Source: Deltaproteobacteria bacterium (GTDB lineage Bacteria; Myxococcota; Myxococcia; Myxococcales; SZAS-1). Taken from it: a stretch of DNA of 44,791 nt. Location of the stretch: positions 1-44,791 of the forward strand of contig JAFEBB010000059.1 of NCBI GenBank assembly GCA_018266075.1, written 5' to 3'. The notes beneath the pieces are model-generated. The model did not search any database and was not told where the DNA came from. It saw only the letters and a program-made list of their open reading frames with translations. The translations under genes were made by a program, and so were the position numbers. Below are positions 1-44,460 of this stretch, piece by piece. Position 1 is the first letter of the stretch; every line of letters begins with the position of its first letter.

Positions 1-1
1 C

Positions 2-100
2 GAGGCCCATCTTGGCCTCAGCAAGGTGTCTCAAGAAATCGTGACGCGGGGGACCATCGGGCTCCTGGCGGGCCACACGCCGCCATCAGGCTTCTTCTAA
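2..100 (+). CDS. C-terminal fragment of an unidentified protein (5' end outside window)
   Basis: An open frame enters from the left edge and ends at TAA (98-100), giving 32 residues that finish in HTPPSGFF. Codon choice is compatible with a real gene, and a small hairpin overlaps the stop, which fits a true 3' end. There is too little sequence to name a family. It is kept because it reads straight from the window edge to a hairpin-flanked stop. It could also be chance in GC-rich DNA. Confidence 0.3.
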   Translation, partial: EAHLGLSKVSQEIVTRGTIGLLAGHTPPSGFF

Positions 101-348: not shown

Positions 349-3300
349 ATGGCTCGACGCGCCCTCACATCGCCTTTCGTCGTCTGTCTCGTCGCCACCC
401 GCGAACGCGACGTGCTCCTACAACGAGCGCTCGCTACCGTCGCACTGCAAACGCGCCTGCCAGACGCATTGATCGTCGTGGACGACGCGGACGGAGGTCC
501 GACAGCGGCGACGACCGAAGCCGTACGGGCACTGGACCTATCGGCCGGCGTGGAGCGAATTCTCCTGGGTCACCGGCGCACACGAGGTGCAGCGGGCGCA
601 TGGAACGCGGGGCTCGACGAGGCTGCTCGTCGATTCGGGCCGCCCGAGAGCGTGATCGTCGCCATCCTCGACGACGACGATGAGTGGAGTCCCGATCATC
701 TTGAGCGCTGCATTGGTGCGATTGGTCCCGATGTCGATGTCGTCGCGCCGGATATCGTGCGGCATGACGCGAGGCACCCGGAAGGGCGGCTACAGCGTGC
801 GCCGGACGAGCTCTCCGTGGACGTGGCGCTCGTGGGTAACCCTCACATCCAGGGCTCAAACCTCGTCGCACGGCTCTCGACGCTGCTCGAATCGGGACTC
901 TTCGATGAGCATCTGCCGAGCACGACAGACCGCGACCTCGTGATCCGCCTCGCCGACATTGGGGCGCGCTACCGACGGGTCGATGCAGCGACCGTTCACC
1001 ACGATGCCGCCATTGACCGTCCGCGGCTCTCTCTTCCCGCGAGCGACGCCAAGCGAACGGGGCTGGCGAGGTTTCTTTGGAAGTACGGAAGGCGAATGAC
1101 TGCGTCACAGCGGGAGGCCTTCGGCAACCGTGCGCGGGAACTCTTTGGAGTCGATGTCGCGTCGAGCAATCCGGGGCCGGCGGTTGCCGAGACGTCGCCT
1201 CCAACTTCAAAGGAAGCCGAGTTCGGATCTCGCGTGACGCTCGTTGCCGGCGTTGTTGCAGATGGCGACGCCGCTGGCGTGGCGCGGGTCGAACCTCTTC
1301 TGCGAGACCTCCTGTCTCTGCATGCCGAGGAGGGACTCGGGGGCCTGGACGTGGTCCTTCTGGAGAACGGAGACGGCAGCGGCACTCTGGGCGAGCTCGT
1401 GGACCGCATGAACTCTTCTGGCCTGCGATGTCACCACGTCACCGTGGCTCGGCAACGGGAAGATGCGCTTGCCGGCGCATTCGGGCCGGAGTTCGTCCGT
1501 CGCGACGGGCGCCTTGCGATTGCGGAGTCGAGGACGCTCCTTCAGCGCTACGTCCGGTGGCTGATGCGGCCTGGCGCGATCGCCTGGATCCTCGACGACG
1601 ACAAGCGACTCGATGCGCTTGTGCTCAAAGGGGGGCGAGAACTGATTCGTGAGCGATTGCCAGTCATCCAGCGCATCCGGAGCCTTGAGCAAACGGGTGC
1701 TTCTGCCGTCCTTGGCGTCGATACTGGTGCTGCACCCCTGCCGGCCGTTGCCACGCTGCGCGTACAGCTCGTCGACCTTCTTTCGAACCTCACAGCGATG
1801 CAAGCAATGGAGCCGCAGAAGGCGTGGCTCTCGCCGGCTCAGGAGAACGCGAAAACCGCACGAGACGCGCCCGACTACTACTATGACCTCGCGCGGAGCC
1901 AAACAGCGCACCTCGAGACGCCGTTCTGGTTCGACGCGGGCAAAACCCCAGTCTCCGTTCGCGAAGCGATGTTGTCCTTGTGCACCCGAGCGCCCCGCGT
2001 GCTGGCCGGCGAGCAGGTCTTCCGCCCGCTATTCGTCGAACAGGACCAATCGCTCACAACACGCGCATCCATCATTCGAGGTGGCAACACGCTGGTGTTC
2101 GACCCAGATGCACTGGTCGACGTGCCGCAGTTCGTGCCAGCGCCCGACGGTCGCCCATCCCGACGGTCGGACATCGTCTGGGCGCTCCTCAATACCTACG
2201 TCCGAGCGCGTCCCACTGTTCAAGCTCCGTTTGCGGTGTTCCACGACAGGAGCGACCTTGGTGAGGATGCCCTCAACCTCAGCAGAATCGTCGACGACAT
2301 CCGCGGTTATGCTCTCTATTCCGCGCTCGCGGACGTATTCGAGGACAGGCAGAGACGTGGGTTGGACGTCCTCGCCCTCGACAGCGCCGGCGAACGCCTG
2401 GTTGCCGAGCGCCACGGGAAATACCTGCAGGAGCGCGCTGCGGCGCTGAGCCTCGCCGTTCATCGCTCTCGTGGCGTTGCGAAGGCCATCCTGCGCCTCA
2501 TCCGCGAACCCGGGTCGTGGTGGTCGACGGATCTCGAGGTCAAGAGTGCGCTGTGCGGTCTGGAAGAGCTTGCGAACAAGGTCGAGCTCTTCCTCCATCT
2601 GGAGCGAGTTGCGGAGTTGGAGACCCAGCTTGCAGCCACAGAGCCCGTACTTGCTTCGACGTACCTCGGCAAGCTTCGCGAGGTCCTAGCAACGGCCATG
2701 GGAGACCGCGACAGGCCACCGCCCGCGTGGCTCCAGGAAGAACGGACGCGGGTCGCGCGTGCCCAGGTTCAGCGGTTGGCGCAGACGAAAGGTCAGCTCC
2801 GGCCTCTTGGGGCGGGCGCTGAGGGCGTCGTCTTCACAGACGGCGCGACGGTGTTCAAGTACTTCGACCACTGGAGTGCGCGAGGTGCAAGCGAGCGACG
2901 CGCCTTCCTCCATTCCCTCGTTGGCAAATGGCGGGGCACCTCGGGGCTATACGAATTGACCGGCCTCATCGAGGACGGCCCGCACTCGGTTCTCGTGTAC
3001 CCGTACGAGCCAAGTGAGCCGTACACGGGCGGCCATGGCCCTGGACTCGTCAGACTCCTGCGCGAGTTTCGCGCGAACGGGATCGCCTGCCGCAATCTGC
3101 ATCCGAAGAACCTGCGTGTTGTCGGCGACAACGTTCGCCTCGTGGACTACGGCGCTGACCTCCGGCCTCTCGATGACGTTGAATGGCGTCACATGATTCG
3201 CCGCGCTTTCCTCTGCTGGAGGTGGGCTCATCGCTCCGATCTTGAGTCGCTCATGAAGCGAGCCCTGAGCGAAGACATCGAAGAGCTTGACGGTTGGGAG

Positions 3301-5526
3301 CGGATGCAGCGCGCAGTCGTGCCCACGGACGCGAAGGAGGATCTCGACCAACTCATCCTCCGCATCGTCCACGAGGCGCGACCGGGTGCCGTACTCGACT
3401 TTGGTTGTGGAGCAGGGTCATTGGTGCGCCGATTGGCGACAGATGGAGTCGTCGCGCTGGGGTACGACGTGGCGTCGAACCGGCGCTGGGCGGAGCAGGG
3501 TGGCACGCTAACGACCGACCGCAACCTTGCGCTCTCCCGCGCCCCATTCGATCTCGTCGTCTGCTCCCTGGTTCTGTGCTCGCTCAATGACGTGGAATAT
3601 CGCGAGGTCATTCGCGAGGTCAGAGCGGCGCTTCGGGTCGAAGGAACGGCCGTCATTGCGGTGTGCAATCCGTTTCATGTCCTGGGGGGCGATACCGCGC
3701 TTCAAGAGCGCCACGTGGAACCTGGCAGCGATCAGGACACCGCTTTCACCTGGACCAAGCAGACTCGAGCGACTGGCCGGACGAGGGCCGACGTTCACCG
3801 GCCATTCCACGTGCTGAGACGAGACCTGCTCCGCGCCGGACTCCTGACCCAATCGCTGAACGAGACGGAGTGCGTCGACGAGGAGCGATTCGAGCCGGCG
3901 TCGGACTTCCTTGTGCTCACAGCGCGCGCCATTGCGCCGGGTCCACGGGTGTCGTTGCTCATCCGCGCGTCGGCGATGGACTGGCGAACGGTCGAGCACC
4001 AGGTGCGCCACATCGTCGACCAGTTCGAGACGCCTCATGCGTTCTTCGAGCGAATCGTCGTCCTCGACTCACGGCGCTCGGACTTCCCTCGCCAGCACGA
4101 CGAGCCTGACCACGCGGCCGCTCGCGCCGCGATTGAACGCCTCGTGGCCAATGGGACGATCGACCAGCTCGTCGAGGCTCCGACAGGTGGGTCGCCGGTG
4201 GCTGCTCTTCACGAGCGGTGGTACGGATTGAGTGCTTGTGAGCCTCACACCGTAGCTGGCTACCCTAGCGCTGCTAGCCTCGTTGGCTTCGAGGCTTGCT
4301 CCGGCGACTACATCCTCCACCTGGACGCGGATGTTCTCGTCGGGCGCAATGGAACTGGTGACGAGCCTCTGCGTGAGCTTGCTGAGGCGCTCGAGGCCGA
4401 TCCGGTTGCCGTCTCGGCCGCGGTGAGCATTGCTTCACTCCACCCCGGTCCCTTCACGCAGGGCGGAGAAGAAGGGGCGTGGCGCGTCGAGGCCCGTGCG
4501 ACTCTTCTGCACCGAAGCCGCCTACTTGGCAGTCGGCCATGGCCGAATCGGCTTCGAGGCGCGCAGGTTGAGCTCACGTGGCACCGAGCGTTGGACGAAC
4601 GCATCCGAGGCGGAGACCTGTCGTCCCTGCGGCGTGGAAGAACGCCCACGTTCTTCATCCACCCCCCGAATGAGCTCAAAGTCGACCGCGACCGCCTTCA
4701 CCTCATCGGCGAACGCATTGCTTCCGGCGTCATGCCTGCGGAACAGCTTGGTCACGTGGAGCTCGTCCCGGACTTGCACGCTTGGTTCACGCCGAAGCGC
4801 ACAGAGCCTGTCGTCATCGTCGCTTGTGGTCGAAACGTGCCTGCGGGTCGGGTGCTGCGCTGGCGCGAGTCACTCGCTGCGCAAACCGACACAAGCTGGG
4901 GCGTGGTCGTTGTTGAGGATGGAGGCAAGCGGGCGAGCCAGGAGTTCGTTCGGCACGCGCTGAGCGGCTGGTCGTCCCGTGCCACTTTGCTGACTCCGCC
5001 TCACCGTCGTGGCGGACTCGCGAACATGGTTGCGGTTCTCGGACACATCGCGAGCGAGCCGGAGACCATCGTCATCCAGGTTGATCTGGACGACGCCCTT
5101 CTTGGGAAGAACGTTCTTGCACGCGTCGTCGATGAGTTCCGCTGCGGCGCCGACCTTGTCGTGGGTGGCATGCGTCGCACGGACAAGTTCGGCGCCCCTC
5201 CGCCTGTGTTCGACAACGCTCGCCAACGGCGCGGCGGGGGCGTCTGGCAGCACCTCCATGCGTTCCGACGGCAGCTCTTTGATCGCGTGCCTGATGAGGC
5301 GCTGCGTCTCGATGGCGAGTACGTCGACCTTGCTTGGGACTGGCCCTTAATGCTGGGACTTGTCGAGGCGGCAGAGTCGCCGCGGTACATCGACTCCCCC
5401 TGTTATCTGCATGAGCCGTCGGGACCTGGAAAGACGGGTGTCGAGCGAACCGCCCGCGAGGCGATCATCAACCGAATCGTCAGGCAACCGGCGGTTCACG
5501 CGAACAGCGCCCGCTCTCAGCGTTGA
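349..5526 (+). CDS. Giant multidomain glycosyltransferase / kinase-like / methyltransferase fusion protein (1725 aa)
   Basis: One uninterrupted frame carries six apparent domains. (1) A GT-A/GT2-like domain (about 8-250) has VVDDAD at 43-48 and ILDDDDEW at 106-113. (2) A second GT-A-like unit (about 293-700) has WILDDD at 413-418 and RRSDIVW at 605-611. (3) A kinase/APH-like domain (about 812-985) has a Gly-rich loop at 821-828, K837, a catalytic-loop motif RNLHPKN at 915-921 and a metal-site motif DYG at 933-935. (4) A class I methyltransferase (about 1000-1195) has SAM motif VLDFGCGAG at 1015-1023. (5) A GT-A-like domain (about 1199-1470) has DAD at 1326-1328. (6) A GT2-like domain (about 1486-1715) has VVVVED at 1519-1524 and DLD at 1579-1581. 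No signal peptide or membrane segment was seen, so a cytoplasmic location is expected. Such fusions usually assemble surface glycans or decorate natural products; the substrate cannot be told. Third positions are less GC-biased than in neighbouring genes, suggesting transfer. Domain boundaries are estimates. Confidence 0.85.
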   Translation: MARRALTSPFVVCLVATRERDVLLQRALATVALQTRLPDALIVVDDADGGPTAATTEAVRALDLSAGVERILLGHRRTRGAAGAWNAGLDEAARRFGPPESVIVAILDDDDEWSPDHLERCIGAIGPDVDVVAPDIVRHDARHPEGRLQRAPDELSVDVALVGNPHIQGSNLVARLSTLLESGLFDEHLPSTTDRDLVIRLADIGARYRRVDAATVHHDAAIDRPRLSLPASDAKRTGLARFLWKYGRRMTASQREAFGNRARELFGVDVASSNPGPAVAETSPPTSKEAEFGSRVTLVAGVVADGDAAGVARVEPLLRDLLSLHAEEGLGGLDVVLLENGDGSGTLGELVDRMNSSGLRCHHVTVARQREDALAGAFGPEFVRRDGRLAIAESRTLLQRYVRWLMRPGAIAWILDDDKRLDALVLKGGRELIRERLPVIQRIRSLEQTGASAVLGVDTGAAPLPAVATLRVQLVDLLSNLTAMQAMEPQKAWLSPAQENAKTARDAPDYYYDLARSQTAHLETPFWFDAGKTPVSVREAMLSLCTRAPRVLAGEQVFRPLFVEQDQSLTTRASIIRGGNTLVFDPDALVDVPQFVPAPDGRPSRRSDIVWALLNTYVRARPTVQAPFAVFHDRSDLGEDALNLSRIVDDIRGYALYSALADVFEDRQRRGLDVLALDSAGERLVAERHGKYLQERAAALSLAVHRSRGVAKAILRLIREPGSWWSTDLEVKSALCGLEELANKVELFLHLERVAELETQLAATEPVLASTYLGKLREVLATAMGDRDRPPPAWLQEERTRVARAQVQRLAQTKGQLRPLGAGAEGVVFTDGATVFKYFDHWSARGASERRAFLHSLVGKWRGTSGLYELTGLIEDGPHSVLVYPYEPSEPYTGGHGPGLVRLLREFRANGIACRNLHPKNLRVVGDNVRLVDYGADLRPLDDVEWRHMIRRAFLCWRWAHRSDLESLMKRALSEDIEELDGWERMQRAVVPTDAKEDLDQLILRIVHEARPGAVLDFGCGAGSLVRRLATDGVVALGYDVASNRRWAEQGGTLTTDRNLALSRAPFDLVVCSLVLCSLNDVEYREVIREVRAALRVEGTAVIAVCNPFHVLGGDTALQERHVEPGSDQDTAFTWTKQTRATGRTRADVHRPFHVLRRDLLRAGLLTQSLNETECVDEERFEPASDFLVLTARAIAPGPRVSLLIRASAMDWRTVEHQVRHIVDQFETPHAFFERIVVLDSRRSDFPRQHDEPDHAAARAAIERLVANGTIDQLVEAPTGGSPVAALHERWYGLSACEPHTVAGYPSAASLVGFEACSGDYILHLDADVLVGRNGTGDEPLRELAEALEADPVAVSAAVSIASLHPGPFTQGGEEGAWRVEARATLLHRSRLLGSRPWPNRLRGAQVELTWHRALDERIRGGDLSSLRRGRTPTFFIHPPNELKVDRDRLHLIGERIASGVMPAEQLGHVELVPDLHAWFTPKRTEPVVIVACGRNVPAGRVLRWRESLAAQTDTSWGVVVVEDGGKRASQEFVRHALSGWSSRATLLTPPHRRGGLANMVAVLGHIASEPETIVIQVDLDDALLGKNVLARVVDEFRCGADLVVGGMRRTDKFGAPPPVFDNARQRRGGGVWQHLHAFRRQLFDRVPDEALRLDGEYVDLAWDWPLMLGLVEAAESPRYIDSPCYLHEPSGPGKTGVERTAREAIINRIVRQPAVHANSARSQR

Positions 5527-5588
5527 GCCGTTTCGGAGGAACGATCAGGCGCGATCACGATGACTCTGCGGCTCGGCCATTCAGCTTT

Positions 5589-5610
5589 CCATGTGCCATC
5601 CATGTGCCAT
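5589..5610. repeat. 11-bp perfect tandem duplication
   Basis: CCATGTGCCAT occurs twice without a gap (5589-5599 and 5600-5610). Shortly after, TGTCCTG also occurs twice. Short direct repeats of this kind are often arm-type integrase sites near attachment sites, but that role is inferred only from position, about 135 bases from the tRNA-like sequence. Confidence 0.6.
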
Positions 5611-5744
5611 GCGGGTGTGTCCTGGCATGTCCTGCGATGATCTGACCTGCACCCCCGTGTTTCCCAACTTCTTGAGCGGTTTCGCTAACTTGTGCGGCAA
5701 GCGTGCGTTCTCGCTCGGTTATTGGTTCTTACTGGGAAACTGAC

Positions 5745-5767
5745 TTCGAATCCCGTCAGGGACGCCA
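5745..5767 (+). other. tRNA 3'-end fragment, candidate attachment site (attR-like)
   Basis: These 23 bases read as the end of a tRNA gene: a T-loop TTCGAAT (5745-5751), the 3' strand of a T-stem CCCGT, a 7-nt acceptor strand CAGGGAC, discriminator G and CCA. The bases before the T-loop (CTGAC) do not pair with CCCGT, and no anticodon or D arm precedes it, so this is not a working tRNA. A lone tRNA 3' end is what tyrosine-recombinase elements leave at their distal junction. The intact tRNA would then lie to the left, outside the window. Chance similarity is possible. Confidence 0.45.
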
Positions 5768-6064
5768 ACCGCCGCACGAGTGGCCATGAATCGCGTGGTC
5801 ACATTCGGCGGCGAGGAGCTGGCCCCCTGGGCCGATGGCCACTTCCGCGCGCTCTTCCGCGGGGCAGGCTGCGCCGAGTACGGCAGGAGACGGTGCCCAA
5901 GCTTCGGCAAGCCGGGCTCGGCCGGCTCGCGCGTGTCGAGAGGTCCGCCTGCGTCTTCTCCCGCTGACCGACCTTCACCAGCTCCGCAGCGAGCGCGCGT
6001 CGGGCGAAGCGCGCGACCGTGCCAGAAGCGCTTCGCGCTCCACCCGCGACGGCGCAGATGCTCG

Positions 6065-7168: not shown

Positions 7169-7593
7169 CAGCGGCTCGCGGACACGTGGTACGTCGCGGC
7201 GCACGTGACGTCACCCCTGGGGCCGCGCGCGTGCTGCACCTGCACCAGCTCGCCCTCGAGCTTCTGCGGCGTGCCCGCGAGCCTCGCCGAGGAGCGATTG
7301 CCGTCGTCGAGCTGGAGCTCGTTCTTGCTGCCCGCGTAGACGCCCGTGTACGCGCTCGACGCCGTCTTCGCATTCGCGACGGCCACGTGGATCTCCCAGC
7401 CGTTGGCGGTGAGCGTCCACTGCTCGTCGATGGTCGTCACGCCGAGCGCCGCGCGATCCGGGCACGTGGACATCGTCTCGGTGAGGCTGACCTTCCACGC
7501 GCCGAGATACGGCTTGGTCCACGCGTCGGGAGGCTGGTTCGGCGGCGGGGCGCCGGCGAGCGCGATCGCTACGAGAGCAACGAGCATCCGCAA
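7168..7593 (-). CDS. Small exported protein of unknown function
   Basis: The 141-residue product has an N-terminal signal peptide (MRMLVALVAIALAG) followed by a Pro-rich stretch. The mature part has paired Cys residues (STCPDRA and VTCAAT) that could form a disulfide, and alternating hydrophobic strands suggest a small beta-rich domain. The gene starts 3 bases after the RCC1 lipoprotein gene ends and its stop overlaps the next start, so it sits in the middle of an operon of secreted proteins. No family was recognised. Confidence 0.7.
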   Translation of the reverse strand: MRMLVALVAIALAGAPPPNQPPDAWTKPYLGAWKVSLTETMSTCPDRAALGVTTIDEQWTLTANGWEIHVAVANAKTASSAYTGVYAGSKNELQLDDGNRSSARLAGTPQKLEGELVQVQHARGPRGDVTCAATYHVSASR

Positions 7594-7596
7594 ACT

Positions 7597-10500
7597 CTAC
7601 GGCAAGAGAACTTGTTGGGGCGCCGTGGTCCACGCATTCCCGTCACCGACCTCACCGCTGCTGTTGGAGCCCCAGCAGTAGAGCAAGCCGCCCGCTCGGA
7701 TGCCGCAGGTGTGCGAGCCCTCGAAGAAGTCCGAGCCCACGGAGACCGCGACCCAGTCGGTGAAGCTGCCGATCTGCTCGGGCACCGACTGCGACGTGTT
7801 CGTGCCGTCGCCGAGCTCGCCGTAGGTGTTGTCGCCCCAGCAGTAGAGCGCGCCCTGACCGTTCGAGCCGCGGATGCCGCACTGGTGAGAGCCGGTGACG
7901 TCGTAGGCGATCCAGTTGCTCGCGGTGCCCACCCGCGTGGGCGCGCTGCCGTTCACGACCTGGTAGAGGCTGCCGTCGGTCTTGAGGCCGAGCGCGGTGT
8001 ACGGGTCGCCGCGGATGTTGGCCCAGTTGGCGTCGGTGCCGTCCTGGGTTCCGGTGGGGCTGCTGTACGTGAACGACCAGAGGGTGCCCGGGCTGCGCAC
8101 CGCGATGAGGCCGTACTCGCCGATGCTGGCGGAGAGGTAGGTGTTGTTGTCCACGGGGGTGGGCGTGGGGATGTCATAGACGCCCGCGCCCGCGTCCACG
8201 GGAATCTCCCGGCCCCACGCGAGCAGCGCGCCGGTGCTGGTCACGCCGGTCGAGTTGTAGAACCCCGCCGACACCTCGCGGAAGGTGATGTTGGAGATGG
8301 TCCGCGTGGGCGTGGTCTCGCTGTTGGTGGTGCCGTCGCCGAGCTGGCCGTCCGACCCGTCGCCCCAGGCGTCGAGCAGGCCGCCGTCCTCGAGCGCGAG
8401 GATGTGCGAGGTGCCCGAGCTGAAGCGCACGATGGGCACGCCCGACTCGCTGAGCGTGGGCGTCTGCACCGGCGGTGCGTTGAACGATGAGTTGCCGTTC
8501 GCGAGCAGGCCCGGCGCGCCCCAGCACCAGAGGTCGCCCGCGTGCGTGCCGCAGGTGGTGGCGTTGCTCGCGGCGACGACGGCCGTCCAGCCGCTGCTCG
8601 GGCCCACCGCCTCGGGCGAGTTGGCCACCGGGGCCACGCCGTCGCCGAGCTGGCCGTACTGTCGACGGCCCCAGCACTGCACGCCCGCGTCGGCCTGCAT
8701 GGCGCAGGTGTGCGAGTCGCCGGGCGCGCCGGTGACCCAGTCGTTGTCCGCGCCCACGCGCACGGGGCTGGTCGACGACGGCGGCGACGCCGCGCCGAGC
8801 TCACCGAAGCCGTTGTCGCCCCAGCACCAGAGCGAGCGATCGGCCTTCACCGCGCAGATCTGCGGCTTGTAGCCGTCCATCTGCACGCCCACCCACGGGC
8901 CGCCGGAGACCTGCGAGGGCGCGTCGCCGCCGCAGCTGTCGCCCCAGCAGTAGAGCGACGCGTCGAGCCTGAGGCCGCAGGTGCAGTAGCCCGCCGCAGC
9001 GACCTCGGCCCAGTCGTCGGGCGGGCCCACGTGCTGCGGGTCCGGGGTGGAGAGGTTGAAGTTGGGGTTGGGCACGCCGAGCTGGCCGTCGAGCTCGCGG
9101 CCCCAGCAGTAAAGCGCTCCCGAGGTCTTGACGGCGCAGCTGTGGTTCTCGCCCACGGCCACCTGGACCCAGTCGGTGTCGCTGCCGCTCTGCGTGGGCG
9201 AGTCGGCGTTTCCGAAGGTGCCCACGCCGCTCACGTTGCCGAGCTCGTCGTTGTCGTTGTTGCCCCAGCACCAGAGGGTGCCGTCGGTCTGGACGCCGCA
9301 GGCGTGCTCGTCGTCCATGGCCACCTGGCGCCAGTTGGTGTTCGTGCCCACCTGGGTCGGCGACTGGGTGCTGCTCTCCTGGCCCGTGCCGAGCTGGCCC
9401 TGGCTGCCCTCGCCCCAGCAGAAGAGCGTGCCGCCGTCGCTGGTGCCGCGGATGCCGCAGGTGGCGCTGTTGCCGGCGCTGATGTCCTGCCAGTCGGTGC
9501 TGCCGCCGACTTGAACCGGCGTCGCCTGGAAGCGCACGTTGCTGTTGCCGATGCCGAGCTCGCCCTGGCCCGGGTCTCCCCAGCACCAGAGCGTGTGGTC
9601 TGGGCGGATGACGCAGCTGTGGTTGCCGCCGCTCACCAGCTGCGCGCCGTTGGCGGCCGCGCGCACCAGCACGCTCACGTTGGCGGTGGCGGTGAGGGAG
9701 CGCGGGTCCTGCGCGGTGTAGCTGAAGCTGTCGATCCCCAAGTAGCCCAGCGTCGGCGTGTAGAGGACCTTGTTGCCGGAGATGGTCGTGGTGCCGTGCG
9801 AAGGCGTGCCCACGGCGCTCACGGTGAGGGCGAGGTTGTTGGGGTGGGTGTCGTTGGCGAGCACGTCGATGAGCACGCTGGCGCCGTCGGTGGTGCTGGC
9901 CGCGTCGTCCACCGCGACCGGCGGGCCGAAGACGCTCACGTGCACGTGCGCGGAGGCGCTCGAGAGGCCGTCGCCGGCCGAGTAGATGAACGAGTCGTCG
10001 CCGGCGAAGCCATTGTTCGGGATGTAGTGCACCTCGCCCGAGGCGATCGCCGTCAGGCCGTGCAGCGCCGAAGACACCGTCTGCAGGCTGAGGGTGTTGC
10101 CGCTGGGCGCGGAGTCGTTGGCGAGCACGTCGATGTCGATGGCCGCGTTCTGGCTGGTGCCCGCGTCGTCGTCGACGAGCTGCACCGGCGCGCCCACGGT
10201 GACGGTCACGTTGGCGCTGGAGTGGCCGCCGCGGCCGTCGGTGATGGAGTAGGGGAAGCTGTCGGTGCCCGAGAAGCCGTTGTCCGGCGTGTAGGTGACC
10301 GTGGTGCCGTTGGTGATCACCTGGCCGTGCGTGGCCGGGCCGGCGGCGCTCACGGTGAGCGGGTCGTTGTCCGGGTCGGTGTCGTTGGCGAGCACGTTGA
10401 TGGTGACCGCCACGCCAATCGCCGTGGTCGCGGTGTCGTCGTGCGCGCTGGGCGGCGCGTCCACGGTGACGGTGACGATGGCGCTGGCCGTGCCGCCGCG

Positions 10501-10902
10501 GCCGTCGCTCACCGTGTAGTGGAAGTCCTCCTCGCCCACGAAGCCCGCGTTCGGCGTGTAGATGATCGCCGGGCCCGCCACGACCGCGTTGCCGTGCAGG
10601 GGCGTGCTCACCGAGGCGATGCTGAGCGTGTCGCCGTCCGGGTCGGTGTCGTTCTCGAGCACGGGGATGGTCACCGCCTGGCCGGTGACGGTGGTGGCCG
10701 CGTCGTCCTGCGGCAGGGGCGCGTGGTTGGTGCCCGTGGTCGACGACGTCCCGCCGCTGCCCGAGCCGCTCGTGCTGCTGTGGCCCGTGGTGCCGGCGTT
10801 GGTGCCCGCCGTGCTCCCGGAGCTCCCGGACGACGTGTTGCTGCCACCGCCACAGGCCGCGAGCAGAGCGGCCGTGAGCGCCAGCGCGAGCGAGCGGTTC
10901 AT
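7597..10902 (-). CDS. Lipoprotein with four Ig/cadherin-like repeats and fourteen RCC1 repeats
   Basis: The product has 1101 residues. It begins MNRSLALAL with a lipobox ending LLAAC, then a Gly/Ser/Thr linker. Four repeats of about 92 residues follow, each with a VLxNDxxP core (ENDTDPDGD, ANDTDPDND, ANDSAPSGN, ANDTHPNN), the pattern of Big_9/cadherin-like tandem domains. The C-terminal two thirds hold about 14 RCC1-type repeats of the form CxxxxxGxLWCWG...GELG, enough for two seven-bladed propellers. Most repeats have paired Cys, but blades 9-12 have lost them. The start was set at 10902 because AAGGGGA lies just upstream and the signal peptide begins there. It is the first gene of the operon with 7168-7593 and 6065-7168. 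A surface binding or adhesion role is inferred; RCC1 domains outside eukaryotes are not tied to GTPases. Confidence 0.9.
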   Translation of the reverse strand: MNRSLALALTAALLAACGGGSNTSSGSSGSTAGTNAGTTGHSSTSGSGSGGTSSTTGTNHAPLPQDDAATTVTGQAVTIPVLENDTDPDGDTLSIASVSTPLHGNAVVAGPAIIYTPNAGFVGEEDFHYTVSDGRGGTASAIVTVTVDAPPSAHDDTATTAIGVAVTINVLANDTDPDNDPLTVSAAGPATHGQVITNGTTVTYTPDNGFSGTDSFPYSITDGRGGHSSANVTVTVGAPVQLVDDDAGTSQNAAIDIDVLANDSAPSGNTLSLQTVSSALHGLTAIASGEVHYIPNNGFAGDDSFIYSAGDGLSSASAHVHVSVFGPPVAVDDAASTTDGASVLIDVLANDTHPNNLALTVSAVGTPSHGTTTISGNKVLYTPTLGYLGIDSFSYTAQDPRSLTATANVSVLVRAAANGAQLVSGGNHSCVIRPDHTLWCWGDPGQGELGIGNSNVRFQATPVQVGGSTDWQDISAGNSATCGIRGTSDGGTLFCWGEGSQGQLGTGQESSTQSPTQVGTNTNWRQVAMDDEHACGVQTDGTLWCWGNNDNDELGNVSGVGTFGNADSPTQSGSDTDWVQVAVGENHSCAVKTSGALYCWGRELDGQLGVPNPNFNLSTPDPQHVGPPDDWAEVAAAGYCTCGLRLDASLYCWGDSCGGDAPSQVSGGPWVGVQMDGYKPQICAVKADRSLWCWGDNGFGELGAASPPSSTSPVRVGADNDWVTGAPGDSHTCAMQADAGVQCWGRRQYGQLGDGVAPVANSPEAVGPSSGWTAVVAASNATTCGTHAGDLWCWGAPGLLANGNSSFNAPPVQTPTLSESGVPIVRFSSGTSHILALEDGGLLDAWGDGSDGQLGDGTTNSETTPTRTISNITFREVSAGFYNSTGVTSTGALLAWGREIPVDAGAGVYDIPTPTPVDNNTYLSASIGEYGLIAVRSPGTLWSFTYSSPTGTQDGTDANWANIRGDPYTALGLKTDGSLYQVVNGSAPTRVGTASNWIAYDVTGSHQCGIRGSNGQGALYCWGDNTYGELGDGTNTSQSVPEQIGSFTDWVAVSVGSDFFEGSHTCGIRAGGLLYCWGSNSSGEVGDGNAWTTAPQQVLLP

Positions 10903-11016
10903 GGTTTCCCCTTGCAGATGTGGCCGGCTGCGCTGGGCGCGCGCCCCTGTCCAGAGGCTAGCAGGGCCTCTCGGCGTGAGCACAATCCGGGACACGACGA
11001 ATCACGCCTGGCGCGG

Positions 11017-11553
11017 TTACGGCCCGCTCTTGGATCGCACGCGCGTGGCCATCCACAAGAGCAGCTCCCACGCGCCGAAGATGCCGAGCACCAACATCAA
11101 GCCCACGTCGATCGCCAGCCCGTTGAAGGCGATGGGCATCTCCAGAATGAACCCGGTGCCCACCGCGAAGAGCCCGAGGTACGCGGCGCCGGGGATGGCG
11201 ATGTTGATGATCCAGTCGGAGACCTCCATGTCGCCGTTCTTCCGGTGAACGGCGCGAAGTCGTCCGAAGATGGAGGCGAGCCGCGCGCTGCGGAACGCGG
11301 CCATGCCCACCAGGCCGATGCCCAGGATCGCCGGGGTGAGGCTGGGCACGATGAACAGGCAGCTCACCAGGAGCACTTGCACGAAGTGGGTGAGGATGGG
11401 GTCCACGAACGCGCGCGCGGTGGTGAGATCCTCGCCCGCGAGGCTGGCGCCGAAGGTCACGGCCACGAACATCAGCCCGGTGAGGGTGGCAGCGGCCTCG
11501 CCGGTGAGGAGGTAGAAGTTCGCCCAGCTCTGCGCCGTCGCGAGGAAGTTCAT
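11017..11553 (-). CDS. Multi-pass inner-membrane protein of unknown function
   Basis: The 178-residue product has about four hydrophobic segments (around residues 18-36, 55-80, 120-145 and 145-165). No signature family motif was recognised. It starts 3 bases after the stop of the receiver-fusion gene at 11557-12498, so the two are almost certainly co-transcribed and this protein may work with that regulator. Confidence 0.75.
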   Translation of the reverse strand: MNFLATAQSWANFYLLTGEAAATLTGLMFVAVTFGASLAGEDLTTARAFVDPILTHFVQVLLVSCLFIVPSLTPAILGIGLVGMAAFRSARLASIFGRLRAVHRKNGDMEVSDWIINIAIPGAAYLGLFAVGTGFILEMPIAFNGLAIDVGLMLVLGIFGAWELLLWMATRVRSKSGP

Positions 11554-11556
11554 CGC

Positions 11557-12498
11557 TCAGCTCTTGAAGAGCTCGGCGAGCAGGCTCCGCAGCTCCGCAG
11601 CGGTGATGGGCTTCTCGGCCACCGAGTGGAGCACGCCGCGCGCGAGCGCCGTCATGGCCTCGTCGGGCGGCGCGGAGGTGTGCAGCACGCGCGCGCACTT
11701 GGGCCAGCGCTCGGCCACCTGGCGCAACAGATCGAGCCCATTGGGGCCGCCGCCGAGCGCGTGGTCGCTCATCACCAGATCGAACGATCGGCTCTCGAGC
11801 GCGGCGATGGCCGCCGTCGCGCTCTCCACGGCGGTGACCTCCGCCACGGGTGCGAGCAGCCGCTCCAGGCCCTCGCGCACCAGGTGCTCGTCGTCGACCA
11901 GGAGCAGCCGCGGCAGGCGCTTGGCCTTCGCAGCGGGCGCGCCCGGGCGCCGCCACTCGAGGTCCAGCCGCGTCGGCGTCTTGCTGTCCTTCCACGACAT
12001 GCGCGTGAACTTGCCGTGCACGTGCTCGCCGCCGGCTTGCTCCACCAGCGCCTCGAAGAAGCCGAAGGTCTGCCAGCTCGCGGCCTCCTCGGCCTTGCTG
12101 CCCATGCCATAGGCAACGCCGATGGTGGCGTGCTCGTCGCTCACGTCCTCGACGGTCACCGCCGGGTAGTCGAACAAGCTGCCCATCAGGTTCGCGAAGC
12201 GGATGATGGTGTCGCGCACGTCGCCGTCGGCGCAGAGCTCGGGGAAGAAGGAGAGGATCTGCGGGATCTGCGAGCGGCCCCAGAGCCGCACGCTGTCCAC
12301 CTCGCCGCCCACGACCTCCGCGAGGATCGCCAGGCCGAAGCGCTCGAACACGTCCATCGAGTACCAGGCGCCGAGGTCCACCTGCTGGCTGAGGAGGTCG
12401 AGGTCGGCGGGCTGCAGGTGGCGCGCGAGGTTCTGCGAGGCGCTCTTGCGCAGCATGCGCACGTAGTCGAGGAAGAGGACGCCGCGGACTTGCTTCAT
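11557..12498 (-). CDS. TIGR02265/DUF2378-like domain fused to a C-terminal response-regulator receiver domain
   Basis: The product has 313 residues. Residues 1-185 resemble the Myxococcales-restricted TIGR02265/DUF2378 family, which has a heme-NO-binding-like fold (VLFLDYVRMLR, LGAWYSMDVFERFG). Residues about 197-310 form a receiver domain with an acidic pair at D202/D203, probable phospho-acceptor D245 in VMSDHALGG, T274/S275 in LHTSAPP and K296 in EKP. No output domain follows, so the phosphorylation state probably acts through the N-terminal domain. The ATG at 12498 was preferred to a GTG 13 codons upstream because the family core starts there; no strong Shine-Dalgarno supports either. It is the first gene of a pair with 11017-11553. 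Confidence 0.75.
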   Translation of the reverse strand: MKQVRGVLFLDYVRMLRKSASQNLARHLQPADLDLLSQQVDLGAWYSMDVFERFGLAILAEVVGGEVDSVRLWGRSQIPQILSFFPELCADGDVRDTIIRFANLMGSLFDYPAVTVEDVSDEHATIGVAYGMGSKAEEAASWQTFGFFEALVEQAGGEHVHGKFTRMSWKDSKTPTRLDLEWRRPGAPAAKAKRLPRLLLVDDEHLVREGLERLLAPVAEVTAVESATAAIAALESRSFDLVMSDHALGGGPNGLDLLRQVAERWPKCARVLHTSAPPDEAMTALARGVLHSVAEKPITAAELRSLLAELFKS

Positions 12499-12697
12499 GG
12501 ACGCGAACCATATCTGCGTCTGCGCGCGCGGCTCCACCCACTACAGCCCCAGCGGAATCCGGATTGGAGGAGCTCGGCGCTGTCCGCGCCGGTGCCGAAC
12601 GAGACGGGCCGCTGGATGCGCTTCGAGCGCGCGGCATCGTCGGCGACGCGGCCCGCGACGAAGGCCTCGAGCTCCTGCATCGACACGTGGCCGTCGT

Positions 12698-12787
12698 GGC
12701 GACCTGAACGGCGACGGCCGCGATGACGTGGTGGTGCCCGCGTGGACCAGTGGGACCGTGACGACCCTCGAGGGGACCTGCCAGTAG
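12698..12787 (+). pseudogene. Remnant of an FG-GAP/VCBS-repeat protein
   Basis: The last 29 codons of an open stretch read GDLNGDGRDDVVVPAW...LEGTCQ and then stop. GDLNGDGRxDVVV is the calcium-binding core of FG-GAP/VCBS repeats from secreted beta-propellers. Upstream sequence in this frame is Arg-rich nonsense with no signal peptide or earlier repeats, so only the C-terminal end of a former gene seems to remain. It sits between two minus-strand genes. Confidence 0.55.
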
Positions 12788-12789
12788 AG

Positions 12790-13464
12790 CTACGTCAGCA
12801 GCCCGACGATCAAGTTGATCGCCAGCGCCAGGATCGCCGTGTTGTACGCAAACGACATCAGCGCGTGAATCAGCACCGCCTTGCGAATCGTGGGGCTCGA
12901 GATGGACACGTCCGAGACCTGGAAGCACATCCCCAGCGTGAACGCGAAGTAGGCGAAGTCCCACGCCGAGGGCGGGTGCTTGCCGGGGAACTCGAGGCCC
13001 TCGTCGTGCTCGAAGTAGAGGTGCAGGTAGTGCCCGCCGAACGTGGTGTGCGTGAGGAACCACGAGCAGACGACGGCGATCAAGCACAGCACCACCAGCG
13101 CCACCTCGACGTTGTGCGGCAGCCCCAGCGTCTTCGCGTGCCGCAGCAGCCACATGGCCGCGAAGAGGTTGATGAAGCTCGCGCCCAGCACCAGCGGGCC
13201 GAGCACGCCGCGCCCGGGGTTCTCGGCCCAGGAGAGGCGCCGCGTCTCGTCCGGGTCGCTCTCGACGATGATCCACCAGCCGAGCAGCGTCTCCACCAGG
13301 CTGAGCACATCCCAGCTGGCGACGAGCCGCACCGGCCACTTGAACGGCCACAGCGCCACGTAGACCGCGAGCCCCGCCGCGAGCGAGTAGCCCAGGCGCG
13401 TCATCGCCCGGCGCGGATCGAGCGCGGGGAACGTGGGGAAGTCTTGGTATCGCGCTTCGCTCAT
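12790..13464 (-). CDS. DUF1345 family membrane protein
   Basis: The 224-residue product has about five membrane segments and the DUF1345 signature near its C-terminus: LEFPG, DFAYFAFTLGMCFQVSDVSI, an Arg-Lys pair, then HALMSFAYNTAILALAIN. The family is of unknown function. The start at 13464 (MSEARYQDF) was chosen over longer frames because GAGCGA precedes it and upstream residues look non-coding. A paralogue with the same signature lies at 40573-41259. The gene stands alone on the minus strand. Confidence 0.85.
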   Translation of the reverse strand: MSEARYQDFPTFPALDPRRAMTRLGYSLAAGLAVYVALWPFKWPVRLVASWDVLSLVETLLGWWIIVESDPDETRRLSWAENPGRGVLGPLVLGASFINLFAAMWLLRHAKTLGLPHNVEVALVVLCLIAVVCSWFLTHTTFGGHYLHLYFEHDEGLEFPGKHPPSAWDFAYFAFTLGMCFQVSDVSISSPTIRKAVLIHALMSFAYNTAILALAINLIVGLLT

Positions 13465-13613
13465 CGGTCGCTCGCTCAGGTCAGGCCCGTGCACCAAAGG
13501 TGGTGATGGCCCGGCCCCGCGACCAGCGGCGCGGGTGCAAAGTTCCATGCTTCACGCCTGCATTCGGGGCGGCGCATCGCGCGCGATACGATCGCCCGTT
13601 CGGAGGTGGTCGC

Positions 13614-14048
13614 ATGCGCAAGCGAGGCTGGCTCGTGGCGGCAGCGATGGGTGCAGTCCTGGGCAGCGCAGCGCCGGCGAGCGCGGAGCTGCGCGTGGCC
13701 GCGGGCGCCGCCGCGTGGCTCGACGTGGGCCCGGTCTTCACCGCCACCTTCGCCGGCGACGCGCGCGTGCTCCCGCACTTCGAGGTCGGCGGTCGCGGCG
13801 GCGTGGGGTTGCTCACGCCCGGTCCGGCGAAGGCGATGATCCCCCTCGACATCCAGGCGCGCTTGCTCATCAGCCGCATCTACATCGAGGGAGACGTGGG
13901 CCCGTGGCTGGTCATCGAAGACCACCCGGTGCACGCGCACGCCACGCTCGGCGCCGGCGTGGAGGTCGGCATCCTGGTCGCGGGCCTCGAGGTGGGCTGG
14001 CTCGATCCCGAGGGCATCCTCGGCGTGCAGGTCGGCCTTCGCTTCTGA
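13614..14048 (+). CDS. Small exported beta-rich protein, probably outer-membrane associated
   Basis: The 144-residue product has a clear signal peptide (basic MRKRG, hydrophobic core, ASA-E cleavage). The mature part alternates Gly-rich turns and amphipathic strands (GVGLLTPG, HATLGAGVEVGILVAG) and ends in aromatic F (VGLRF), as outer-membrane barrels do. At about 120 mature residues it would be a very small barrel or a periplasmic beta domain. GGAGG at 13602-13606 fixes the ATG at 13614. No family name can be given. Confidence 0.75.
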   Translation: MRKRGWLVAAAMGAVLGSAAPASAELRVAAGAAAWLDVGPVFTATFAGDARVLPHFEVGGRGGVGLLTPGPAKAMIPLDIQARLLISRIYIEGDVGPWLVIEDHPVHAHATLGAGVEVGILVAGLEVGWLDPEGILGVQVGLRF

Positions 14049-14247
14049 GCGCGCAGACGCGCGCTCTGCCCGGCCTTCGGGCTCGATCACCGCGCGGCCG
14101 CGCCCGGAGACGGAGCACGTGGCCGCGCTCGACGGCCTCGAGCGCGCGCCCGAGGCCTCTCGCAGCCACCCGGACCACGCCGCGCCCGAGGCCACCACGC
14201 GGGCGTTGCGCGAGGTGCTCCGCACCAGCCCGCTCGCGCGGTAGCCG

Positions 14248-15267
14248 CTATTCGTCGCCGCCGTCGCTGCGCGTGCGCGTTCCCGTGGCCCATGCGATCT
14301 CCCGCTCGGGCCATCGCAACGCGCCCACGCACGCGAGCGTCTTGCTGGCGAGGGTGAGCCCCTGGAAGTCGATGCAGGCCACGTCGCCGCGGAACGGCGC
14401 CCGGCCGCGCGCGGGCACACTCGGCGCGTGCTCCTTCTGCCAGCTGCGCAGCTTCTGATGGCCGCTCGGAAAGGGCGGGCAGAAGTTCTCCTCCACCGGC
14501 GGCAGGTTCCAGTAGTGGCCAACCACCTGCGCGCGATCGCGGAGCACGGGCGCGTCGCGCTCGAGCCACCAGGTCACGCGCACCTGCTTGCGCAGCTTGC
14601 CTTCCGAATCCGGAAACGGCTCGACCGGCCCGAGCTCGAAGCCCTTGATGAGGATCTCGTGCGGCGCGTCTTCCTTGGTCTTGCCCTCCACGCGCGGCGG
14701 CCGGTCCGGCAAACCGGCCTTCAGCCCGGACTCGGTGAACGGCGTGCCCACCACCACGTGCGAGGCGACCCAGCGCTGCGCCTCGGAAGAAGTTTCGGGC
14801 CGTGCGCCGCTCGGCGCGAGCACGGAGGCGACCGCGTTCAAGCTCGGCACGTGCCAGTTGGCGTGGATGACGCGCAGATCCGGAAAGGCGATGCCGATGG
14901 GCAGGTCACGCAAGAACGGCAGCACGGCTTCCCAGCGGGTGCGCTTGTCGTCGATGTCTTCGGTGGTCTTGCGGTTGGAGTGCTTGGGCTCCTCGTAGCG
15001 CGGGAGCTTCATCCACCAGGCCACGAGGTTGTACTCGTGGTTGCCCATGATGGCGCTCGCGCGGCCCTTCTTCGCGAGCCGCTGTGCGAGCTCCACGACC
15101 TCGAGGCTGTGCGCGCCGCGATCGACGAGATCGCCGAGGAAGAGCAGGTGGCGGTCGTCGGGGTGGAGCGGGTCGCCGTCGGCGTCGGGCCGGTAGCCGA
15201 GCTCGTGCAGCAGGCTCTGCAGCGCGGGCAGCTCGCCGTGGATGTCGCCGATGAGATCGAGCTTCAC
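14248..15267 (-). CDS. Calcineurin-like metallophosphoesterase (PrpE/ApaH-like)
   Basis: The 339-residue cytoplasmic protein carries the metal-binding blocks of the calcineurin-like phosphoesterases at the N-terminus: GDIHG (7-11), GDLVDRG (45-51) and GNHE (75-78), with a later NWH motif. Spacing resembles bacterial PrpE/ApaH-type enzymes, which hydrolyse Ser/Thr phosphoesters or diadenosine polyphosphates. The C-terminal half (about 170-339) is long for the family and holds a Trp-rich region, VTWWLERD..VGHYWNLPP. The substrate is not predictable. The gene is transcribed alone on the minus strand. Confidence 0.85.
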   Translation of the reverse strand: MKLDLIGDIHGELPALQSLLHELGYRPDADGDPLHPDDRHLLFLGDLVDRGAHSLEVVELAQRLAKKGRASAIMGNHEYNLVAWWMKLPRYEEPKHSNRKTTEDIDDKRTRWEAVLPFLRDLPIGIAFPDLRVIHANWHVPSLNAVASVLAPSGARPETSSEAQRWVASHVVVGTPFTESGLKAGLPDRPPRVEGKTKEDAPHEILIKGFELGPVEPFPDSEGKLRKQVRVTWWLERDAPVLRDRAQVVGHYWNLPPVEENFCPPFPSGHQKLRSWQKEHAPSVPARGRAPFRGDVACIDFQGLTLASKTLACVGALRWPEREIAWATGTRTRSDGGDE

Positions 15268-15350
15268 GCGCCGATCATAACGCCCGAAGCGACAGCGCGC
15301 GCACGGCCGCCGCGATGATGGGCGACCGAGCGCGCGCAGGGTCCTTTGCG

Positions 15351-15545
15351 TCAGACCTGGTCGATCTTGTCCTTCACGTTCTCCTTCACTTCGCCCTTCT
15401 TCGTCTCGTAGTCGCCGCGCGCCTGGTCGGCCTGGCCCTCAACCTTCTTGCTCGTATCGTGGGTGAGGTTTCCGTACGCCTCCTTGGCCTTGCCCTTCAG
15501 GCGGTCGAGCATTCCTTGGGTCTTGTCTTCGCTGCTGGTTCCCAT
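15351..15545 (-). CDS. CsbD-like small stress protein
   Basis: The 64-residue, highly charged protein has the CsbD-family pattern of Lys/Glu/Gly/Asp helices: DRLKGKAKEAYGNLT followed by KKVEGQADQARGDYE. CsbD homologues are induced by general or osmotic stress; their molecular role is unknown. The ATG at 15545 is preceded by a strong Shine-Dalgarno (GGAGAAGGAG). Single-gene unit. Confidence 0.85.
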   Translation of the reverse strand: MGTSSEDKTQGMLDRLKGKAKEAYGNLTHDTSKKVEGQADQARGDYETKKGEVKENVKDKIDQV

Positions 15546-15743
15546 GGTGGCTCCTTCTCCTCCGACGGAAACCATGCTCTCGGGCCCCGAGGTCGGGAAG
15601 CCTCGGGCGCGCGCGCGTCGGCACGCATGCCCGCTCGTGCGCGCATCGCCCGGACGCATGCCGCGTTGAGAGAGAGAAGATCTCATCGCCGTCTCAGGGC
15701 GGTCTCATGGGCGCGCGCCTACGCTCCAGCGCGAGGTCGAACC

Positions 15744-43090: not shown

Positions 43091-43115
43091 GGTTGCCGAT
43101 TGACGCTCGGCAACC
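43091..43115 (-). terminator. Intrinsic-type hairpin after the efflux operon
   Basis: GGTTGCCGA and TCGGCAACC form a perfect 9-bp stem with a 7-base loop, 31 bases past the end of the TolC-like gene. On the minus strand a short T-run (CTTTTCC) follows about a dozen bases later. A transcription terminator is likely. Confidence 0.6.
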
Positions 43116-43116
43116 A

Positions 43117-43140
43117 GGAACCAGGAGCGAGGAACCAGGA
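43117..43140. repeat. Short direct repeat GGAACCAGGA
   Basis: GGAACCAGGA occurs at 43117-43126 and 43131-43140, next to the terminator hairpin. It looks like simple-sequence expansion in an untranslated region. Confidence 0.6.
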
Positions 43141-43146
43141 ACGGAC

Positions 43147-44460
43147 TCAGAGAATCCCGAGCGAAGCCATGAGCTGCGCTCGCGCCGTGGCCACGCTGTA
43201 CACGGCCGACACGCGCTGCGCCGCCGACGAGGTAAGCGTCGCCTGGGCGTCCGAGAGCTCGATGATGTTGCCCACGCCGGCCTGGTAGCGGCCCTCGGCG
43301 AGCGTGAGCTGGGCCTTGGCGGCGTCGAGCGCCTCGTCGGCGGCGGTGAGCGCTTCCTTCGCGGCGTGCACCGCGAGCTGCGCCTGCTCCACCGACTGAC
43401 GCACTTGCAGATGGAAGGCGTCGCGCTGGGCCTCGATGATCACCCGGTTCGACTCCGCCTCCTGCACCTGCGCGTTGGTGAGCCCGCCCTGGTAGAGGTT
43501 CCAGCTCATGGTGAGCTGGCCGATGAGGTTGGGGGTCATCTGGTCGTGGAAGAGGTTGTCGCCGGTGAGCGTGCCGGAGGCGCTCGCGCCGAAGCTCGGC
43601 CAGTACGCGCCGCGAATCGAGCGCAGCGTGTAGTCCTCGGCCTGGAGCTGGGCCTCGAAGGCGGCGCTCTCCGGCCGCGCGGCGTAGGCCTGGTCCACGA
43701 GCTTGTCGAGCGCGCCGTCCTCGCCTTGGACCGGAGCGAGCTCGGTGTCGGTGACCTCGTAGTCGGTCGGGCCTTCGACGCCCATGGCCGTGTTCAGCGC
43801 GGCCTTGGCGGTGGCGTAGTTGTTCGACGCCTGGATGAACTGCACGCGCGCATTCGCCACGTTCGCCTTCGACTGCGCCAGCGCGATCTCCGGCTGCGTC
43901 CCCGCCTCCACGAAGCCCTTGGTCTGATCCAGGTGCGCCATCTGGGCGTGCAGCGTGGAGTTGGCCACGGCCACCAGGTCGCGGTTCGCGCGGGCGGTGA
44001 AGTACGCGGTGCGCACGTTCTCGTTCACGGTGACGGTGTTGGCCCGCTCGGTGTCCGACTGCGCCGAGGCCGTGGACTGCGCGGCCCTGTAGCGGCCCCA
44101 GGTCTGCTGGAAGTCCCAGATGGTCTGCGTGGCCGTGAGCGAACCCGACCAGTACGAGGTGGTGTTCGGCGTGGTGCTGGTGGGCACGCCGCCACCGGGG
44201 TTGATCACCGTGGCGCTGCCGTTGTTGTTGGTGGAGAGCCGGTAGCTCGCGTCGAGCCCCACCTGCGGCAGGTTGGGTGCGAAGGCCTCGTCGGCGCGCG
44301 CGTCGGCGGCCAGGGTGGTCGCGTGCTGCTGCCGGAGCGTGGGCTGGTTCCTCGACGCCGACTGCAGCGCCTGCTCCAGCGAGAGCGTCTTCGTCGACGC
44401 CTCCAGGTGATCGGACGGGTCGGCCGACAGCGCCAACGCGAGTACGAGAACGGGAATCAT
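43147..44460 (-). CDS. TolC-family outer-membrane efflux protein
   Basis: The 437-residue protein has a short signal (MIPVLVLALALSA) and the TolC/OEP duplicated fold: SLEQALQSASRNQPTLRQQ at the start, long helices (DTERANTVTVNENVRTAYFTA, VEAGTQPEIALAQSKANVANA), strands with GSLTATQTIWDF and MSWNLYQGG, then EGRYQAGVGNIIELSDAQATL near the C-terminus. It forms the outer-membrane channel of a type I or MacAB-type pump. Its start overlaps the end of the permease gene by 4 bases, so it serves that ABC exporter. Confidence 0.92.
   Translation of the reverse strand: MIPVLVLALALSADPSDHLEASTKTLSLEQALQSASRNQPTLRQQHATTLAADARADEAFAPNLPQVGLDASYRLSTNNNGSATVINPGGGVPTSTTPNTTSYWSGSLTATQTIWDFQQTWGRYRAAQSTASAQSDTERANTVTVNENVRTAYFTARANRDLVAVANSTLHAQMAHLDQTKGFVEAGTQPEIALAQSKANVANARVQFIQASNNYATAKAALNTAMGVEGPTDYEVTDTELAPVQGEDGALDKLVDQAYAARPESAAFEAQLQAEDYTLRSIRGAYWPSFGASASGTLTGDNLFHDQMTPNLIGQLTMSWNLYQGGLTNAQVQEAESNRVIIEAQRDAFHLQVRQSVEQAQLAVHAAKEALTAADEALDAAKAQLTLAEGRYQAGVGNIIELSDAQATLTSSAAQRVSAVYSVATARAQLMASLGIL

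Follow-up and report, generated by a model that had tools for sequence, protein, structure and literature searches.

A six-domain protein with a GT75-like domain, a candidate glycoside synthase of mobile gene cassettes

We describe a 1,725-residue protein, P0001, in which four GT-A folds, a protein-kinase fold and a class I methyltransferase are joined in one polypeptide. Its gene lies near the start of the window, by which we mean the whole stretch of 44,791 nucleotides analysed here (positions 1 to 44,791 of contig JAFEBB010000059.1). One of the GT-A folds is a divergent GT75-like domain that Pfam does not recognise; glycosyltransferases, a pseudokinase and a methyltransferase accompany it in the same chain, in an order that is conserved. 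The reading we favour, with about even confidence, is that P0001 is a soluble multi-enzyme glycoside synthase encoded by a mobile cassette, the product of which likely serves in conflict. We infer the chemistry from folds and residue conservation, and the role from the company the genes keep. If true, this would link glycan or nucleoside biosynthesis to mobile immunity.

The gene occupies positions 349..5526 (+) as a single uninterrupted ATG frame that is coding-like from end to end (codon-position GC of 0.74/0.49/0.72), and its domains follow the order GT1, D2, helical linker, KIN, MT, GT3, GT4. Glycos_transf_2 from Pfam matches three stretches of the protein (best at residues 16-149, E = 1e-26), and outside these and a Methyltransf_23 stretch there is no Pfam or PDB sequence match. 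Eight further proteins, encoded by bacteria, archaea and virus contigs, show the same six-domain order, and full-length relatives are 53 to ~31% identical to P0001 over nearly the whole length. Because the order recurs in this way, a chance open reading frame, a chance fusion, a chimera and an assembly error are all excluded. An earlier note, written from the sequence alone, had proposed one frame with six domains in an unfamiliar combination. The frame and its domains are confirmed by Pfam, AlphaFold and the eight proteins, and the combination is indeed absent from Pfam, NCBIfam and the searched literature. No NCBIfam or PADLOC family covers P0001, with PADLOC giving only superfamily-level matches to single domains; none of the INPHARED phage records matches it, and the literature searched for this gene set held nothing relevant.

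A scan of GTDB species genomes recovered full-length relatives in six public genomes, namely a Myxococcota bacterium carrying the closest relative (L012, 53% identity), a Neomarinimicrobiota genome (L013), two methanogenic archaea (L014 and L030), a gammaproteobacterium (L015) and a member of the Poribacteria (L016). Family profiles were built from P0001 and these six proteins, all seven with identical domain order, and gene calls in the public loci were ORF-based. Two IMG/VR contigs (L093 and L094) encode versions of 1964 residues that end, at the C-terminus, in a fused histidine phosphatase; they came up only with the D2 profile, and P0001 alone matched nothing in IMG/VR. The D2 domain is rare, occurring in 9/195 genomes of the window's phylum (its own genome included), 3/369 Gammaproteobacteria and 2/395 Bacteroidota, or two and one, respectively, besides the query genome. 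On a tree of GT1 and D2 the phyla are intermixed, and one well-supported clade unites an archaeon, Planctomycetota, Campylobacterota, Bacteroidota and a Pseudoalteromonas plasmid. This intermixing points to horizontal transfer between phyla. The six-domain form is not a single clade on the same tree, and some of the split forms described below may derive from ancestral fusions that were later broken up.

The first domain, GT1 (residues 1-268, 349..1152, +), is a GT-A domain of the GT2 family as judged by Pfam, alignment and the family profile. It scores 94.1 bits against PF00535, well over the cut-off of 23.3, and carries the DxD expected of the family as DDDD at 108-111, with LDDDD kept in all seven aligned sequences, followed by a conserved TDRD at 193-196.

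The second domain, D2 (residues 289-791, 1213..2721, +), consists of a GT-A domain with its core and a helical domain. An AlphaFold model of residues 276-990, with an alignment of 27 relatives, reached a pLDDT of 90.8 and a pTM of 0.91 and contained a GT-A domain, a helical domain and a kinase fold; the helical domain (residues ~644-791) goes with D2, as it does in MtdL. The GT75 mutase MtdL supplied the first Foldseek matches to this model. In VIA-align, MtdL aligned with residues 295-791 at a Z score of 22.2 (300 of 370 residues, rmsd 3.4 Å), compared to 16.1 or lower for all other GT-A proteins.

The residues of D2 agree with this match. MtdL binds Mn2+ through its DDD motif together with His287, and its Arg159 has been proposed as the nucleophile; the enzyme also requires Asp195, Arg257 and Asp260, with Arg289 in contact with the diphosphate (PMC9937993). 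D2 has a DDD at 416-418, R605-x-x-D608 and an HxR after the last core strand, and we drew the residue correspondences from motif order and spacing: the Arg-to-Asp distance is 38 residues in D2 and 36 in MtdL, and the distance from the RxxD Asp to the HxR His is 24 and 27, respectively. Eight positions (D416, D418, R471, D509, D513, R605, R606 and D608) are invariant in 20/20 D2 relatives, while position 632 is His in 16 and Gln in 4, and R634 is kept in 14.

Sequence comparison gave a weaker result. When RGP and MtdL sequences were aligned to D2 with hhalign, the segments GGNT..RRSD..HDR and ..QNT..RFGD..HPR fell in register, but not significantly so (E = 0.15-0.33). That the Arabidopsis RGP1 probe is GT75-like was confirmed by its PDB matches to 8cid (MtdL). 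P0001 has no Pfam match to RGP, and the RGP profile was absent from the 189 and 36 genomes tested, so that the attempt to place D2 in GT75 by sequence failed. Since the three-part fold and the DDD, Arg, RxxD and His residues agree with the family and a significant sequence match is lacking, we call the domain GT75-like and do not file it as GT75. Like MtdL, Hyg20 and the plant RGP/UAM proteins, D2 combines GT-A, core and helical domains with a DDD, the matching Arg and Asp residues and an HxR; unlike them, it has no significant sequence similarity to the group, replaces the His with Gln in a fifth of its relatives and is fused to glycosyltransferases and to kinase-like and methyltransferase domains. 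On the strength of the model, D2 is probably an NDP-pyranose/furanose mutase and not an ordinary glycosyltransferase. Four GT-A domains had been anticipated in the earlier note, and four GT-A folds there are, including residues 293-700 and 1199-1470, the two segments it had named beforehand as a check; the margin in favour of MtdL and the GT75 residues speak against counting D2 as a transferase.

The C-terminal third of the protein holds two further GT-A domains, GT3 (residues 1192-1476, 3922..4776, +) and GT4 (residues 1478-1718, 4780..5502, +), which are supported by AlphaFold, a match to the chondroitin polymerase K4CP and alignment. A model of residues 1188-1722 showed two GT-A domains (pLDDT 89.3, pTM 0.82), with a DxD at 1326-1328 in GT3 and a DxDD at 1579-1582 in GT4, each kept across 16 relatives. 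Across the two domains together, K4CP ranked first (Foldseek E = 3e-18, VIA Z = 22.3), at 13-15% identity; the rmsd over the pair is ~21 Å because GT3 and GT4 are placed differently relative to each other than their K4CP counterparts. GT3-GT4 has the K4CP-type arrangement of two tandem GT-A domains, each with a DxD, and its predicted structure resembles a dual-domain polymerase. It shares the GT-A tandem with K4CP and heparosan synthase 2 and differs from both in its low identity, its domain placement and its inclusion in a larger protein. The match supports the glycan-type chemistry that had been suggested at the outset.

Between these halves lies KIN (residues 806-985, 2764..3303, +), for which AlphaFold, VIA and residue counts indicate a protein-kinase fold (Z = 14.4 to Mnk1). 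All 24 relatives share the Gly loop, Lys837, Asn921 and Asp933 without exception. The whole residue set of an active kinase is thus kept except for the catalytic-loop Asp, which is Asn in 21 of the 24, including P0001 (Asn916, codon at 3094..3096, +), and is retained only in L003, L028 and L034. Judging from these residues, ATP binding is plausible and ordinary phosphotransfer doubtful. The kinase- or APH-like domain of the earlier note has a kinase fold but lacks the catalytic residue of a kinase. The two Bacteroidales proteins among those that retain the Asp (L028 9983-14725 and L034 10007-14770, ~1580 residues) have a different layout, with two GT2 domains, the kinase fold, GT3-GT4 and a C-terminal radical SAM domain.

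KIN is followed directly by MT (residues 985-1190, 3301..3918, +). It was predicted as a class I methyltransferase and is one: it matches Methyltransf_23 (PF13489) at 996-1108 with E = 3e-10, carries an LDFGCG motif at 1016, aligns with its relatives and matches PDB 3e8s (E = 1.6e-5).

The adjacency of KIN and MT, as in WbdD and O7 ORF6, raises the question of a self-contained polysaccharide assembly protein, in which the glycosyltransferases would polymerise a chain, KIN would phosphorylate its end and MT would methylate the phosphate. There is a precedent in Klebsiella O7 ORF6, a single protein that unites a methyltransferase and a kinase with a coiled coil and two GT2 modules and in which mutating the kinase catalytic Asp abolishes kinase activity (PMC11231755). 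Methyltransferase and kinase fold share one protein in P0001 as they do in WbdD and ORF6, the latter also with GT2 modules (PMC11231755, PMC3482155). The resemblance of GT3-GT4 to a two-site polymerase and the presence of UDP-Glc/GDP-Man dehydrogenase-family genes just upstream in three relatives (L014, L016 and L030) fit such a role as well. P0001 departs from ORF6 and WbdD in having lost the kinase Asp, in its extra, mutase-like domain, in the opposite order of its domains and in that neither AlphaFold model shows a long coiled coil that could serve as a ruler. Without the catalytic Asp, a WbdD-like phosphate-methyl cap is unlikely. A crude scan for Walker and signature motifs and hydrophobicity in stretches of 10-25 kb recognised no ABC export pair in L012, L013 or L016, and L014 and L015 may each have an ABC ATPase nearby; the window lacks its upstream side. 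The partner genes of the family, described below, encode nucleotide- and amide-type enzymes. We therefore regard this explanation as unlikely. Phosphorylation and methyl-capping of a glycan, as the earlier note had it, does not fit the Asn in 21 of 24 relatives, and control of chain length finds no support in the models or in the crude motif scan, which recognised no export pair near most six-domain relatives.

Several observations place relatives of the gene on mobile DNA. In L012 the six-domain gene and an SLOG gene lie between the portal and terminase genes of a prophage, and the terminase is matched by 100 phage records over >=80% of its length. The same genome holds a sister prophage, L097, whose two flanks match those of L012 at 84% (over 7.3 kb) and 90% (over 6.3 kb) identity; its portal-terminase interval measures 647 bp (7264-7911) and holds a small unrelated ORF, compared to 6,067 bp (9653-15720) in L012. 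This is a cargo site carrying different inserts, and the GC3 of the L012 cassette (0.70) lies below that of the phage genes (0.86-0.90). Because the insert is discrete and has a sister prophage as natural comparison, its function could be tested directly by comparing lysogens. On the IMG/VR contigs, L093 lies beside DNA matching phage AcaML1 in the vicinity of its excisionase gene, and L094 beside DNA matching phage helicase and Cas4-exonuclease genes.

Prophage cargo of this kind could act by lysogenic conversion, altering surface glycans of the host and so blocking adsorption of other phages. The position in L012, the phage-borne relatives L093 and L094 and the polymerase-like tandem are compatible with that. 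No membrane segment was found in P0001, however, and no flippase or lipid-linked sugar gene was recognised in the cassette, while SLOG, GTP cyclohydrolase II (GCHII) and NADAR partners fit poorly with surface glycans, which makes this an improbable explanation.

An SLOG gene (LDcluster4, LOG-like) lies downstream in 7/8 full-length relatives. In L012, L013 and L015 it is the very next gene; in L014 and L030 a histidine phosphatase gene intervenes, which is separate there and not fused as in the IMG/VR versions, and in L093 and L094 a second methyltransferase gene comes between. SLOG was not found for L016. The family also exists in split versions of three kinds. One set combines AsnB-like, NAT-like, GT1-D2 and GCHII-NADAR genes (L017, L019, L020, L022, L024, L025 and the plasmid L056), with KIN fused to NADAR in three loci. 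Another combines SLOG-KIN, M20, AsnB, NAT and GT1-D2 (L031-L033); L090 belongs with it but carries KIN on the glycosyltransferase protein. The third consists of GT1, KIN-GT3-GT4 and a radical SAM gene (L026-L029, L034, L035, L057 and L064). Further neighbours among the relatives encode polysaccharide deacetylase, PhyH, methyltransferase and phosphatase. The fusions to SLOG and to GCHII-NADAR join KIN to nucleotide-cleaving enzymes of two unrelated kinds, and both may be read as supplying the same kind of intermediate. With SLOG downstream in nearly all full-length relatives and AsnB-, NAT-, M20- and GCHII/NADAR-type partners in the split forms, the self-contained machine imagined in the earlier note is not supported. 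Polysaccharide deacetylase genes recur near the L088, L089, L015 and L017 cassettes, and DUF4915 genes occur in L017 and L088.

In the glycoside synthase reading, D2 would convert an NDP-pyranose to an NDP-furanose in cis. By analogy with MtdL, the metal would sit on the DDD and His632, Arg471 would be the sugar-binding nucleophile and Asp608 the base. GT1 and GT3-GT4 would then transfer the D2 product and other sugars to a small acceptor, giving a short furanose-containing chain, and MT would O-methylate the product. KIN may bind ATP as a regulatory or scaffolding pseudokinase, or else perform nucleotide chemistry other than that of a kinase. Cleavage of a nucleotide, either to supply the acceptor or to remove a by-product, would probably fall to the downstream SLOG enzyme, or in split forms to GCHII-NADAR, and the split forms would use amide-forming partners in addition. 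Since the genes move as phage cargo and within defence loci, the product would most likely serve in conflict, against phages or against competitors.

Competition between cells, and not defence against phages, is the essence of another explanation, by which the product is a diffusible nucleoside- or aminoglycoside-like antibiotic. Bacterial GT75 mutases are known from the A201A and hygromycin pathways. Indeed, the only two that have been characterised, MtdL and Hyg20, both come from antibiotic pathways (PMC9937993), and the AsnB-like, NAT-like, M20, polysaccharide deacetylase, PhyH, methyltransferase and phosphatase genes among the partners would suit such a pathway. A compact unit of 2-5 genes in prophages and restriction loci, with no dedicated exporter or resistance gene identified, suits it less, and we consider it possible yet rather less probable than a glycoside made by a mobile conflict cassette.

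The split forms are also linked to restriction. A gene for hsdR lies within ~12 kb in 6/14 split-form loci, compared to 0.32 expected; when the arrangement shared by Thalassolituus and Microbulbifer is counted once, four hsdR-linked loci remain (P = 1.7e-4). The split cassette is located inside hsdM-hsdS-[cassette]-hsdR in L031, L032 and L033, and split forms are near hsdR in L023, L025 and L090. In the first three loci (L031 5614-15726, L032 and L033), five biosynthetic genes separate the hsdS and hsdR genes of a type I restriction operon, and in L031 and L033 the last of the five and hsdR have overlapping ends. Guards of the PrrC/RloC type are likewise an extra gene between hsdS and hsdR of type I operons. 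The split cassette resembles them in its position in Thalassolituus and Microbulbifer; it differs in encoding biosynthetic enzymes and not an anticodon nuclease, and the position was unseen for the six-domain form. In the stretches read, the six-domain forms have no restriction genes nearby, so the link belongs to the split forms. Mobile genes in general tend to collect in prophages and defence loci, and such company alone is therefore no proof of a defence role. The insertions in hsdM-hsdS-hsdR suggest that sugar-nucleotide chemistry takes part in a conflict strategy absent from PADLOC.

These loci bear on hypermodification of nucleic acid as well, in which DNA or a free base would be decorated to evade or assist restriction. 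Besides the operon insertions, GCHII and NADAR act on guanine-derived substrates. In Uabimicrobium amorphum (L017 4327-8733), genes for a TGT/DndB fusion, DndB and FolE2 lie beside the split cassette; genes of this kind are known from 7-deazaguanine DNA modification. P0001, for its part, has no DNA-binding domain in the Pfam search, its GT3-GT4 resembles glycan polymerases and the restriction genes do not accompany the six-domain forms, all of which leaves hypermodification very improbable.

The cassettes might more broadly represent a new class of mobile conflict system, carried across bacteria and archaea by phages, a plasmid and restriction loci, that uses NDP-sugars and nucleotide fragments to make a furanose-containing glycoside and whose modules (glycosyltransferase, GT75-like mutase, pseudokinase, methyltransferase, SLOG or GCHII-NADAR, AsnB and NAT) have been reshuffled between single genes and one polypeptide. 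We put this forward tentatively, as less likely than the narrower reading of P0001.

The copy in the window has features of its own. The GC3 of the gene (0.72) is well below the ~0.93 of the neighbouring chromosomal-type genes from 6 kb onward, and the gene therefore looks acquired. The usual position of SLOG, here 5527..5770, has no coding frame, so that the partner is absent beside the gene and the copy may be partial or decayed; the one PF18306 SLOG gene elsewhere in the genome, on another contig, is uninformative, as the family is present in 13/14 control genomes. At the upstream edge, a contig-end repeat (1..53, +) is also found at other contig ends, the first 53-62 bases recurring at or near the ends of C14, C15, C44, C60, C104 and C125 of the same genome. 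With the repeat at at least six other contig ends, the gene adjoins a multicopy element, and its upstream side is lost.

Just past the low-GC region, a tRNA-like 3' end at 5744-5766 (CTTCGAATCCCGTCAGGGACGCC) may be the remnant of an integration site of the tRNA type; the sequence is single-copy in the genome, so that no such site is shown. Farther along, 7597-10995 (-) encodes a 1132-residue protein with bacterial Ig/cadherin-like and RCC1 repeats and a GC3 of 0.96. A tRNA-Met gene of 95 bases lies at 43112-43206 (-); it is long for its kind and thus perhaps misread or intron-bearing.
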